Source: Clostridiales bacterium
Lineage (GTDB): Bacteria > Bacillota > Clostridia > Oscillospirales > Acutalibacteraceae
Length of the DNA stretch: 59,114 nucleotides
Assembly (NCBI GenBank): GCA_021200555.1
Contig: JAJQGK010000065.1
Location: forward strand, 1 to 59,114
Direction: 5' to 3'
A model generated the notes under the pieces. The model saw nothing but the letters and a program-made list of their open reading frames with translations. It was not told the origin of the DNA and did no database searches. The number at the start of each line of letters is the position of its first letter. Position 1 is the first letter of the stretch. A program made the position numbers and the translations under genes. Positions 21,171 to 55,990 of this stretch are shown here, one piece after another.

Positions 21171-24100
21171 TCAGTCAAGCTTTGCGGCAACCCTTAAAAT
21201 GGATCTTGCGTCCGCAGGCTTTATCACAGAGTCGGCGTCAAAGTCGGCTGCAGCAAGGTAAACATTCTCAAGAATGTCAATCTGAGCGGCTGCTCTCAGG
21301 GCAAGCCTTGCGTCCGCCGCCGTAATCTTGCCGTTGCCGTCCACATCGGAGGGAACGATAACAGTGTATTCAGACACAACGCCGCCGCTTTCGTCAAAAG
21401 TCTGCACCTTGCAGCCCGTACCTACAAGAGACTCGCCTTCAAGCTCCTCTCCGTCTGCATTAAAAAGCTTAAAGCTGCCGCCTGTAACAATCGCCGCAAA
21501 ATCCTCTGCACTTGTGTCCGCAGGAATTGTAATCCGCTTTGTTCCCTCAGCCAATGATGCCAACGCTTCATCTACCGCAAAAGGCACTTTCTCCGTGTCG
21601 GACTCCTCCGTTGAAGACTCTTCGGTGCTGGTTCCCGCCGCTCTCGCCGCCTCCGTTGTGGCTTCCGCCGTGGGCGGTTCTGCTGTGGTCGGCTCTTCCG
21701 TTGTTGGGTCTGCTGTTGGCGGCTCTGCTGTGGTCGGTTCTGTTGTTGTAGACTCCGCTGTAGTCGGCTCGACTGTAGTCAGCTCAACTGTTGTGGGTTC
21801 AGCCGTGGTTGGCTCCTCTGTCACAACATATTCACCTAAGGATACAAATATTATTCCATTTTCGTTGGCGTATATTTCCGCAGCCGTGCCGTCATAGCCG
21901 TAAATTATAAATCCGTCAATAAGAACATATGTCCAGCTATCATAACCATAATCGCAAATATATCCAAATGCATCATCACCGATTGAGGTTACGCCAATGC
22001 CGATTGTTACAGTTTTAAGAGATGTACAATTCACAAATGCATCACAGCCAATTGATGTTACGCTGTCGGGGATTTCTATACTTGCAAGGGATGTGCAGCC
22101 GGAAAATGCATCGCCGCCGATTGAGGTTACGCTGTCAGGAATTTCTATACTTGCAAGGGATGTGCAACCGGAAAATGCATCAACGCCGATTGAGGCTACG
22201 CTGTCGGGAATTGAATAGGATGTAATACTGCCTCCTTCAGGGAATTTAATAAGCCTTGTTTTATCCTTATTAAATAATACTCCATATTCATCGCTTGAAT
22301 AATATATGTTGTTTTCACCAACGGTTATGCTTGTAAGGGATGTGCAGTCTTCAAATGCACCATACCCGATTGAGGTTACACTGTCGTGGATTTCTATGCT
22401 TGCAAGAGATGAACAACCGTAAAATGCATAATCGCCAATTGCGGTTACGCTATTGCCAATTGTTACATTTGCGAGAGATGTGCAATTTCTAAATGCATAA
22501 TTGTCAATTGATGTTACGCTGTCAGGGATAGTTATGCTTACAAGAGATGTGCAGCCATAAAATGCAGAACTGCCGATTGAGGTTACGCTGTCAGGGATAG
22601 TTATGCTTACAAGAGATGTGCAGCCGGAAAATGCAGAACTGTCGATTGAGGTTACGCTATCTGGGATAGTTATGCTTGTAAGAGATGTGCAGTCGGAAAA
22701 TGCAGAACTGTCGATTGAGGTTACGCTATCTGGGATAGTTATGCTTGTAAGAGATGTGCAGTCGGAAAATGCAGAACTGTCGATTGAGGTTACACTGTCG
22801 GGGATTGTTATGCTTTCAAGAGATGAACAGCCGAAAAATGCTCCACTGTCGATTGTGGTTACACTGTTACCGATTGAAACACTTTCAAGAGATGAGCAGC
22901 CGGAAAATGCAGAACTTCCGATTGTGGTTACACTGTCGGGGATTGTTATGCTTTCAAGAGATCTGCAGTTGTAAAATGCATCTTTTGCTATTGTTTTTGT
23001 TCCCTCTTTTATTTCATAACTACCGCTAAGACTTGTTTGAGCTTCTATACAATGATTGCCTATATATAGAACTCCGTCTTCCCAATTGGAGCCATTGTTA
23101 TAATATGCGGTGTCGTAAAATGCCCAAACGCCGATTGTGGTTACGCTATCCGGGATAGTTACGCTTGTAAGAGATGTGCAATTGCAAAATACATAATCAT
23201 CGATTGAGGTTACACCGGTATCAATCGTTACGCTTATCAGGGATGTACAGCCGTAAAATGCATAGCTACCGATTGAGTCTACACTGTCGGGGATGATTAT
23301 GATTTCAAGAGATCTGCAATTGTAAAATGCATAATCATCGATTGAGATTACGCTGTCGGGGATTATCATGCTTTCAAAAGATCTGCAGTTGTAAAATGCA
23401 TAATCACTGATTGAGATTACGCTATCGGGGATTGTTATGCTTTCAAGAGATCTGCAGTTGTAAAATGCTTCACTTGCTATTGTTTTTGTTCCCTCTTTTA
23501 TTTCATAACTACCGCTAAGACTTGTTTGAGCTTCTATACAATGATTGCCTATATACAGTACTCCATCTTCCCAGTTGGAGTCTTCATTATAATATGCCGT
23601 ATTATAAAATGCTTTTCTGCCGATTGTGGTTACGCTGTTGGGAATTGTTATATTTGCAAGTGATGTACAGCCGTAAAATGCACCACTTTCAATTGAGACT
23701 ACACCGTCGGGGATTGTTAAACTTTCAAGGGACGAGCAGTATCCAAATGCATAACTGCCGATTGTGATTACACTATCGGGAATAGATACGCTTGTAAGAG
23801 ATTTGCAGTTGTAAAATGCACAATCTCCGATTGAGGTTACACTGTTGGGAATTGTTATATTTGCAAGAGATTCACAGTGCCTAAATATACTACTGCCGAT
23901 TGAGATTACACTGTCGGGGATGGTTATGCTTACAAGAGATCTACAGTAGGAAAATGCATAATTTCCGATTGAGGTTACATTGTTGGAAATCGTTACACTT
24001 GTAAGGGATTTACAGTTGTAAAATGCACCGGAGGAAGCAGAGCTTGCACTTTTGATTGCGGTTACAGGATACCCATCTATAGTATCCGGAATGGTATAAT

Positions 24101-24278
24101 CACCGCTGATTGAGGTATCGCAGTCGGTAATAGTCGCCTTGCCGTTTGATACAGTGTAGGTTAAATACCCGTCTTCAGATGTGTATGATGCTGCCGAGGC
24201 GGTTAGGGTTATGGGAGCTGCGGACAAGATAAGCAGCACGGACAAGACTACGCTGAGAAGTTTATTTAGCTTGGACAT
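21171..24278 (-). CDS. Secreted BspA-type LRR_5 protein with Thr/Pro/Glu linker and C-terminal dockerin
   Basis: Signal peptide MSKLNKLLSVVLSVLLILSAAPITLTASA; many SLxSITIPDSVTSIGSSAFxGCT repeats; PTTAEPTT linker; DVDGNGKITAADARLALRAAAQ...DFDADSVIKPADARSILRVAAKLD. Confidence 0.93.
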   Translation of the reverse strand: MSKLNKLLSVVLSVLLILSAAPITLTASAASYTSEDGYLTYTVSNGKATITDCDTSISGDYTIPDTIDGYPVTAIKSASSASSGAFYNCKSLTSVTISNNVTSIGNYAFSYCRSLVSITIPDSVISIGSSIFRHCESLANITIPNSVTSIGDCAFYNCKSLTSVSIPDSVITIGSYAFGYCSSLESLTIPDGVVSIESGAFYGCTSLANITIPNSVTTIGRKAFYNTAYYNEDSNWEDGVLYIGNHCIEAQTSLSGSYEIKEGTKTIASEAFYNCRSLESITIPDSVISISDYAFYNCRSFESMIIPDSVISIDDYAFYNCRSLEIIIIPDSVDSIGSYAFYGCTSLISVTIDTGVTSIDDYVFCNCTSLTSVTIPDSVTTIGVWAFYDTAYYNNGSNWEDGVLYIGNHCIEAQTSLSGSYEIKEGTKTIAKDAFYNCRSLESITIPDSVTTIGSSAFSGCSSLESVSIGNSVTTIDSGAFFGCSSLESITIPDSVTSIDSSAFSDCTSLTSITIPDSVTSIDSSAFSDCTSLTSITIPDSVTSIDSSAFSGCTSLVSITIPDSVTSIGSSAFYGCTSLVSITIPDSVTSIDNYAFRNCTSLANVTIGNSVTAIGDYAFYGCSSLASIEIHDSVTSIGYGAFEDCTSLTSITVGENNIYYSSDEYGVLFNKDKTRLIKFPEGGSITSYSIPDSVASIGVDAFSGCTSLASIEIPDSVTSIGGDAFSGCTSLASIEIPDSVTSIGCDAFVNCTSLKTVTIGIGVTSIGDDAFGYICDYGYDSWTYVLIDGFIIYGYDGTAAEIYANENGIIFVSLGEYVVTEEPTTAEPTTVELTTVEPTTAESTTTEPTTAEPPTADPTTEEPTTAEPPTAEATTEAARAAGTSTEESSTEESDTEKVPFAVDEALASLAEGTKRITIPADTSAEDFAAIVTGGSFKLFNADGEELEGESLVGTGCKVQTFDESGGVVSEYTVIVPSDVDGNGKITAADARLALRAAAQIDILENVYLAAADFDADSVIKPADARSILRVAAKLD

Positions 24279-24489
24279 TTAATTTTCCTCCAAATTGAAT
24301 TACATAAAACTTACATTGTATTATAGCATACAAAATGTCCCGTAAAAAGGTCTTTTAAAAATTTCTTGAAAAAATTTTAAAGGATTAGCGTGATTTTCGG
24401 CTGTTTTCGAGTAAAAAAAATAAAAGTAAATGCAATTCCGGTCGTTTTCGGTCAAAAAATACAACGGAAATGCTCCGCAATTTTATCCG

Positions 24490-24540
24490 AAAAAAATGTA
24501 GACCGCCGATGCGATAATTATCAATCCACCGACGGCCTAC
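24490..24540 (-). terminator. Strong intrinsic terminator of the candidate ncRNA
   Basis: GTAGGCCGTCGGTG / CATCGGCGGTCTAC 14-bp stem with G-U pairs followed by ATTTTTTT. Confidence 0.9.
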
Positions 24541-25257
24541 TTCTGAAATTCAATCATTAATTTCGTCCTTTTTATTCTTTTTAATTTTTAAATTTTCATT
24601 GGAATGGTTCTTAAACTTTAATTTACAAACAGTTTTATTTGACTTCAATTTCAAACGGTTTACTATATATAAATTTTTCCAATGGGGCAGTTTCTCTATC
24701 GGCCTTTTCTTTCTCTTATTTCATTGGCTTAGCTGCCATACGCTGCACATTTACATTAATTTTATTTTGTGCTTAATTTTAAAGGAACGATTTCGCCAAA
24801 TTCCGAATAGCAATCACAATCCACCTTTTAAGCCTTCGCCTTTTGAACATATGCCTTTTGGTTTTGGAACTTAGAATCAGATGAAATTTTTACTTAACCG
24901 GTACAAAAATACTTACGGACTATCTTTCTTTTAATTTCTCTTAAGAACGGTACTCATTATTTTATTTTTAATGCCGATCCTTTTCCTCTGACTGCTTTTG
25001 CGGAAGATATCGATACTGCTGCTTTATACTGACCGCCGGCGATCTGATTGATTAGGAGCTAAAGCATACATTGCACAGTTACATTATTTTGCAGCTGCCT
25101 TAAATCAAAGTCAACCATTTATTATTTTTGCCTTATGCGATCCGCCGATATTTTACGAGCCGACGTACTCATTACATGAACATTGGACTCACCTCCCGTG
25201 TTTTATTTGGTTGTTTCAAGGATTTATCTTATCATTTTGGGTTATCTCTCTTTTGCA
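24490..25257 (-). ncRNA. Candidate large non-coding RNA (~770 nt), class unassigned
   Basis: Own consensus promoter (25263..25291) and strong terminator (24490..24540); no minus-strand ORF of 60 aa or more in 24279-25596; internal partial repeats and a self-complementary 14-mer. Confidence 0.6.
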
Positions 25258-25262
25258 CCCTT

Positions 25263-25291
25263 ATAATAGCATACTTTTCCCGCCTTGTCAA
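25263..25291 (-). promoter_or_regulatory. Promoter of the candidate ncRNA
   Basis: TTGACA-17-TATTAT on the minus strand. Confidence 0.8.
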
Positions 25292-25552
25292 GAGTTTTTT
25301 CATATTTTTTTCATTTTTTCTATCACTTTTATGTGTCATTTGTACAATAAAAATATGAACAAATTATGAACAGAAGATTTCGACCTCCGAACAAGCCCTT
25401 TCGCCGTAATCGAATGCTTCATAAGGCACGGGGACGGGCACGGCCTGCTGCATTACAAAAATCTGCTGCACCTTGTTCCCTGTTCCGAAAAAAAATCATC
25501 TGTCAGGTTATACTTTTCATTGCTCATTGACTTCCGAAAAATACAATTTAAA

Positions 25553-55697: not shown

Positions 55698-55990
55698 CGC
55701 TTAAAAATATTAAAGTCCCACGCCAAACAGCATGGGACGAAAATTTCTTCCGCGGTACCACCCAAATAAACGGCTCCCGCCGCTCACTCACGGATACGGT
55801 GTATATCCTGCGGCTGTAACGTACCGTAAACGGCTGAATCTACAGGCATTTTACGCCGAGACGGCAAATGCTTTCGGACAGCGGCTCAGGGATGTTCTTC
55901 ACTTAACGGCGGATACCGCTTTCCAGCTTCGGCGGCTCTCTGTAATCCGTAAAAATTAAGCTACTCTTCCCATCATTGCCTTTATTGAGT
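55698..55990 (-). promoter_or_regulatory. T-box leader (specifier reads AAC, Asn)
   Basis: T-box GGGTGGTACCGCGGAA (55748..55763), terminator GTCCCATGCTGTTTGGCGTGGGAC-TTTAATATTTTT, Stem I with GAAGAGTA and GTGAAG-AAC-A specifier loop. Confidence 0.93.

Follow-up and report, generated by a model that had tools for sequence, protein, structure and literature searches.

A predicted RNA gene with extended Shine-Dalgarno boxes and mini-ORFs beside a ribosomal-protein operon in a Clostridiales genome

The locus between rplQ and a surface-protein gene

We analysed a 59,114-nt stretch of DNA from a Clostridiales bacterium (contig JAJQGK010000065.1, positions 1 to 59,114; hereafter the window), in which a 768-nt RNA is predicted on the minus strand at 24490..25257, bounded by a promoter and the T-run of a terminator. 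This RNA sits between rplQ, which is the last gene of a ribosomal-protein operon that has its own terminator, and a gene encoding a BspA-type leucine-rich-repeat (LRR) protein, which lies on the same strand as the RNA and 212 nt beyond its 3′ end. The following features frame the RNA:

25340..25347, no strand assigned: TTGTACAA palindrome, a possible operator, present as a single copy in the 59-kb window
25263..25291, minus strand: promoter TTGACA-17-TATTAT with an extended −10 (TG), matching the consensus at 11 of 12 positions
24490..24540, minus strand: intrinsic terminator, folding into a 17-bp stem with T7 after it
24320..24325, minus strand: TATAAT −10-like element of a separate LRR-gene promoter (TGTATGCTATAAT)
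21171-24278, minus strand: BspA-type leucine-rich-repeat surface protein of 1035 aa, with a Thr/Pro/Glu linker and a borderline dockerin-like C-terminus

A first-pass annotation of this DNA had proposed an independent RNA gene of ~770 nt, and both the promoter and the strong terminator that it named at the two ends are present and support that proposal. Within 2 kb there are 5 promoter-like sites, of which this promoter scores far above the rest; because shuffled sequences yield 6.0 sites matching at least 9 of 12 positions, only its quality is notable. It was also correct that the RNA contains no ORF of 60 aa or more, the longest sense ORF over the 768 nt being 34 aa, but since 82% of shuffles likewise lack an ORF of 60 aa, this absence alone is no evidence of a non-coding RNA. 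(A 91-aa Phe-rich ORF antisense to the RNA, at 24599..24874 on the plus strand, is probably spurious.) With its own promoter and terminator and no ordinary protein-coding ORF, the locus looks like an independent RNA gene, and the separate promoter of the LRR gene argues that the RNA is not merely the leader of that gene. Elsewhere in the window we noted a T-box leader (RF00230, 112 bits, 55730-55985, minus strand).

The same annotation had described internal structure and had suggested one of the large ornate RNAs such as ROOL, GOLLD and OLE, or a new class. Neither an ornate fold nor membership of, or likeness to, the ROOL, GOLLD, OLE or raiA RNAs was borne out. Folding against shuffles gave z = −1.3 to −1.7 for the whole RNA and z = +0.6 once the terminator was removed, so that the body holds no more structure than expected by chance. 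A search with 4227 Rfam models matched none of them to the window RNA; the ROOL, GOLLD, OLE and raiA covariance models gave no match at the gathering threshold or at E 10, and the permissive threshold returned only chance-level matches. The smaller elements fared variably. The claimed repeated motif, TAATGAGTAC, occurs twice. Two related segments do lie at 25064..25090 and 24736..24763, but their ungapped self-match is marginal, with 1% of shuffles reaching its score, and a gapped 57-nt version falls near the 95th percentile of shuffles. A 14-mer proposed to be self-complementary is so only with two G-U pairs. We also considered a decayed protein gene, given that the two repeats translate alike (NVTVQCM and NVNVQRM), and rejected it: nothing else supported it, and the same spots carry ATG-TAA.

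An extended Shine-Dalgarno box and a series of mini-ORFs

Overlooked in the first-pass annotation was a box, GGGAGGTGAGTCCAATG-TTC-ATG-TAA at 25197..25172, that opens a three-codon ORF. The box and the other small elements of the RNA are listed here from 5′ to 3′; R1, R2 and the 5′ profile are models described below.

25224..25235, minus strand: first mini-ORF, ATG ATA AGA TAA (M-I-R-stop)
25172..25197, minus strand: extended Shine-Dalgarno box GGGAGGTGAGTCCA with mini-ORF ATG TTC ATG TAA (M-F-M-stop), matched by R1 and the 5′ profile
25122..25172, minus strand: overlapping small ORF MSTSARKISADRIRQK*, with a duplex energy of −11.8 kcal/mol and without comparative support
25064..25090, minus strand: internal repeat copy 1 (marginal self-match), holding a start-stop ATG-TAA
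24736..24763, minus strand: internal repeat copy 2 (marginal self-match), holding a start-stop ATG-TAA
24716..24727, minus strand: CC-A-ATG AAA TAA (M-K-stop) element
24584..24603, minus strand: degenerate box CCAATG AAA ATT TAA (M-K-I-stop), the second-best R1 match (8.1 bits, E 0.2)
24537..24557, minus strand: last mini-ORF, ATG ATT GAA TTT CAG AAG TAG (MIEFQK*), within the best R2 match

The string CCAATG occurs three times in the RNA against 0.21 expected (P 0.001), and the M-K-stop string CCAATGAAATAAG is also found in another multi-box RNA (L200). The UAG stop codon of MIEFQK* falls in the base of the terminator stem.

When the RNA was searched as DNA against genomes of the genus and family, short matches stacked on a 22-nt stretch, GTGAGTCCAATGTTCATGTAAT, at 25192..25171. 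The pattern GTGAGTCCRATGNNCA was found at 44 sites in 33 of 394 genomes of the order and at 22 sites in 17 of 200 genomes of the family, whereas the reversed pattern gave 1 site in each set; a scan of IMG/VR for the box returned 73 matches, which we estimate to be about chance level. The box consensus is A-rich and then reads AGGTGAGTCC(A/G)ATGNNCANNTAA, and its upstream half can base-pair with the 3′ tail of 16S rRNA. With that tail taken as the order's usual sequence, assumed rather than read from this genome, the window box pairs at −20.6 kcal/mol, which places it in the top 0.1% of 1784 ATGs. On the same scale seven ATG-start genes of the window range from −9.3 to −13.7 kcal/mol and rplQ, which has a GTG start, reaches −5.6, so that the box out-pairs every ribosomal-protein gene tested in the window. 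The 5′ boxes of the compact family described below average −16.4 kcal/mol; the Shine-Dalgarno of the M-I-R-stop mini-ORF is weak (−6.5 kcal/mol).

A stop at codon 4 was present in frame 0 at 28 of 72 unique box sites and in each other frame at 2 of 72, with TAA and TGA both occurring. Degenerate boxes retain GG(T/A)G and CC-R-ATG. In a second box type, seen in about ten genomes, GGTGAGTCC is retained and AAA or AAG replaces ATG (CCRAAR). Because some boxes thereby keep GGTGAGTCC without a start codon, selection may act on binding and not on translation. Most boxes lie in free-standing intergenic RNAs with a promoter and a terminator, often several to an RNA, and a minority are ordinary gene starts (for example that of a phosphoglucomutase-like protein, L180) or lie inside other ORFs.

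Several loci picked up along the way differ from this pattern. At L299 (G000:C121), L292 and L183, one of them in the window's own genome, single boxes opening MG*, MV* and MGNALAD* lie in the 5′ untranslated regions of secreted-protein genes. At L179, L185, L188, L189, L147, L275, L152 and L157, boxes open ORFs of 17-30 codons that start MG(S/T/I)E or MDSE, and some of these boxes could base-pair with a CGUUGGGC-like segment farther downstream, a pairing that would mask the start site. Another genome of the same genus carries, at about 1330-2440 of L293 (G206:C5), at least five tiny genes for amphipathic peptides of 30-55 aa, each with a strong Shine-Dalgarno and one with a GTGAGTCCAATG box; this looks like a bacteriocin- or modulin-like peptide cluster.

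Long and compact relatives

A full-length DNA search of 11 genus and 200 family genomes, phages and plasmids found no full-length homologue of the window RNA, and within the genus the site after rplQ is variable, with no equivalent RNA there. In one genome of another genus, L013/L144 is a ~770-nt RNA with about ten copies of the box. Window positions 25344..25119 align with the promoter and 5′ region of L013 over 226 nt, promoter to promoter, at 52.5 bits; the shuffle maxima were 34.0 against L013 (200 shuffles) and 46.8 against all 143 loci (120 shuffles). Multi-box RNAs adjoin 6S RNA in several genera (L144, L145, L146, L147, L152, L155, L156 and L158) and, where inspected, are divergent from a DUF1292-type gene. 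In the window's genome the DUF1292 gene is on contig C101 without the box motif, and the window RNA lies instead after rplQ.

A second set of relatives consists of compact RNAs of ~300-500 nt, found in other families of the order. At their 5′ end they carry GAAAGGGTGAGTCCAATG and a tiny ORF, only a few nucleotides from the predicted start; at their 3′ end they carry GAAAGAGAGGT..., an ORF encoding M(M/K)LD[I/T/N/F]KxExK, and a terminator. Where compact relatives have M-Y-R-stop (ATG TAC AGG TAA), the window RNA has M-I-R-stop directly after its predicted start, and where same-genus relatives end in MKLDFKSEQK*, it ends in MIEFQK*, a peptide shorter than LDxKxExK. A covariance model built from the compact-family 3′ end (R2) matched 72 of 394 genomes of the order, in 36 of 169 genera, the sampled genomes being mostly metagenome-assembled (MAGs). 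It also matched 9 of 50 named records, all MAGs. In the window's genus, 6 of 11 genomes gave matches below E 3e-9, often in two or more copies; in a seventh (G080, E 0.016) the terminal ORF was not seen on inspection.

The terminal ORF of the compact family is strictly conserved as a peptide. Across 41 distinct versions, Leu is encoded by five codons, Asp by two and Lys by two, with zero amino-acid changes. These ORFs were collected with a nucleotide model, and because essentially all of its strong matches carried the peptide, filtering on the peptide adds little bias. The stop codon (UAA, UGA or UAG, depending on the species) pairs through its second and third bases with the 3′ arm of the terminator, and these pairs covary (A-U 32 and G-C 13 at one, A-U 40, G-C 3 and C-G 2 at the other). 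Over the whole terminator stem, 16 of 19 pairs change on both sides, a value reached in 0 of 500 shuffles; fitting the alignment to the structure biases these counts upward, but pairing drops to about 50% when the partners are slid. In the compact family, RNAalifold detected no structure beyond the terminator and a trivial 2-bp pairing within the 5′ box. A targeted search revealed that 13 of 47 compact RNAs, compared with 1.9 in shuffles, have a hairpin with a CUUA-type loop, located mostly 56-80 nt before the terminal ORF; by the same criterion this hairpin is absent from the window RNA. The compact RNAs have no constant neighbours, and in 28 of 46 the gene that follows is encoded on the opposite strand, which indicates that they are free-standing RNA genes. 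Their promoters carry TTTGTACAAA or TTTGTATAAA directly upstream of the −35, and the TTGTACAA palindrome of the window lies 49 nt upstream of its RNA's −35. This likeness, which is suggestive only, could reflect a regulator common to the window RNA and its compact relatives.

A model of the box (R1), the 3′-end model R2 and a compact-family 5′ profile were run across the full 59 kb; the window had contributed to none of the three. The best R1 match was the box itself (25197..25171, 22.8 bits, E 3.9e-6) and the second lay inside the same RNA, E-values for so short a box being rough owing to a shortened calibration. The best R2 match in the window fell on the exact 3′ end of the RNA (24573..24490) at 23.2 bits and E 0.024, a weak score that is not genome-wide significant; the next matches, at 20.6 and 19.3 bits, are other terminators. 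The best match of the 5′ profile was the box, and the promoter (25293..25257, E 0.013) ranked third. Judged by these matches, the alignment with L013 and the start-stop units listed above, the window RNA very probably belongs to a class of RNAs with multiple mini-ORFs, and it would with much the same likelihood be a divergent long member of that class; it is not a clear compact member. Common to the relatives are the extended Shine-Dalgarno boxes, the tiny ORFs and the terminator, not a large fold. Conserved intact ORFs in homologues, which the first-pass annotation had held would count against a non-coding RNA, do exist at 2-11 codons, but all of them are below its 60-aa limit.

RNAs of this kind, with arrayed start-stop units and a stop codon that covaries within the terminator, are undescribed in Rfam, where the compact-family sequences match no family, and in the open-access literature that we searched on ribosome sponges, minigene RNAs and ornate RNAs. 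Our models detect the class in roughly a fifth of the genomes sampled from a major gut order, and it has been invisible until now because gene finders ignore ORFs this short.

Possible functions and comparison with known systems

The explanation that we moderately favour is a free-standing RNA gene that carries several strong ribosome-loading sites and mini-ORFs, with the last stop codon paired in the terminator. Across the class, extended Shine-Dalgarno boxes end in CC-R-AUG and the mini-ORFs have 2-11 codons, or up to about 25 in some relatives. Initiating ribosomes would engage such an RNA and terminate almost at once, and the RNA could thereby titrate, park or sense free ribosomes, while the terminal mini-ORF would hold a ribosome against the terminator hairpin. 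The simplest reading of this shared design would be an RNA that engages ribosomes, whether to buffer them, to sense them or to be protected by them as a transcript. Our best guess, a tentative one, is a regulatory role in translation capacity. More tentative still is the full proposal: a widespread RNA class that may hold ribosomes through arrays of the strongest start sites with immediate stops, park one at the terminator, and so buffer or report translation capacity. If these RNAs engage ribosomes, they would represent a novel means by which uncultured gut bacteria control or measure translation.

The RNA might instead be mainly a micropeptide mRNA that acts through its terminal peptide (of the MLDIKSEQK type), with the 5′ minigenes serving only to adjust expression or stability. 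The strict conservation of this peptide in the compact family, with synonymous changes at L, D and K, is what would be expected of a product, as is the strong Shine-Dalgarno ahead of the terminal ORF; such a nonapeptide gene would rank with the shortest genes that we know to be strongly conserved. However, the peptide is reduced to MIEFQK in the window, many multi-box relatives lack such an ORF altogether, and minigenes of 2-3 codons are unlikely sources of useful peptides. Because the CUUA-loop hairpin in the middle of compact RNAs is conserved as well, a role for the RNA itself is also suggested, and we consider the micropeptide reading doubtful for the locus.

The position of the LRR gene, on the same strand and a short distance beyond the RNA, raises the possibility of a 5′ leader or attenuator, whereby ribosomes that complete the last mini-ORF would open the terminator and allow transcription into the BspA-type gene. 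Placement of the last stop codon inside the terminator stem would suit such a mechanism, and the single boxes with MG* or MV* mini-ORFs in secreted-protein 5′ untranslated regions (L299, L292), this genome included, provide a precedent. Yet the LRR gene has its own TATAAT-type promoter past the terminator, and because 28 of 46 compact relatives have an opposite-strand next gene, the class is not generally a leader; we regard this reading as unlikely.

A slightly less probable alternative is that the RNA acts as a sponge, its boxes titrating some other GGUGAGUCC-binding RNA or protein, such as a C-rich small RNA targeting Shine-Dalgarno sequences, with translation being incidental. The GTGAGTCC core is kept in about ten genomes even where AAA or AAG replaces the start codon, as a binding site would be, but the AUG boxes keep an in-frame stop at a fixed distance, and degenerate boxes keep only GG(T/A)G and CC-R-AUG, as start sites would. 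A sponge for CsrA in particular was considered and rejected, as the boxes have no consistent A-N-GGA core.

We think it improbable that the window RNA is a relic, non-functional and in decay, of a compact or long class member: its 3′ ORF is divergent, its R2 score is weak and the species has no strong compact copy, but the near-perfect promoter and terminator, the strongest box of the window and three intact start-stop units all speak against decay. A large ornate structured RNA (ROOL, GOLLD, OLE, raiA-like or new), already disfavoured, fits in size class, promoter and terminator and is very improbable given the lack of an Rfam match at E 10 and of excess folding without the terminator, and relatives that keep boxes and ORFs.

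Comparison with known systems places the preferred reading, that of a free-standing ribosome-loading RNA gene, among several partial parallels. ROOL, GOLLD and OLE are intergenic, have their own promoters and occur in anaerobic Bacillota, as does the window RNA. They resemble it also in being several hundred nucleotides long (PMC12286853). The window RNA differs from them in having no model match or excess folding, and the conserved content here is ribosome-binding sites and mini-ORFs.

Some small RNAs have dual functions and also encode a small peptide, such as SR1/SR1P and RNAIII. The class shares with these an independent predicted transcript that combines a short ORF with an RNA feature (the compact-type hairpin); it differs in carrying several ORFs of 2-11 codons per RNA, in placing a stop codon within the terminator stem and in showing no sequence relation in Rfam. 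Leader-peptide attenuators likewise have a short ORF directly before an intrinsic terminator, so that ribosome and terminator overlap, whereas here the downstream gene is usually convergent or far away and an alternative antiterminator fold was not found. RosA, which sponges RoxS in Bacillus (PMC8216469), is similarly a free-standing RNA with repeated short motifs. In the present class, by contrast, the motif joins an extended Shine-Dalgarno to a start and a stop codon downstream of it.

The bar minigene of phage lambda reads AUG-AUA-UAA. A minigene is also found in axe-txe (PMC8708949). These share with the mini-ORFs described here a start and a stop that are 2-3 codons apart behind a strong Shine-Dalgarno; here, unlike in those systems, the minigenes are arrayed in dedicated free-standing RNAs that are conserved across an order.
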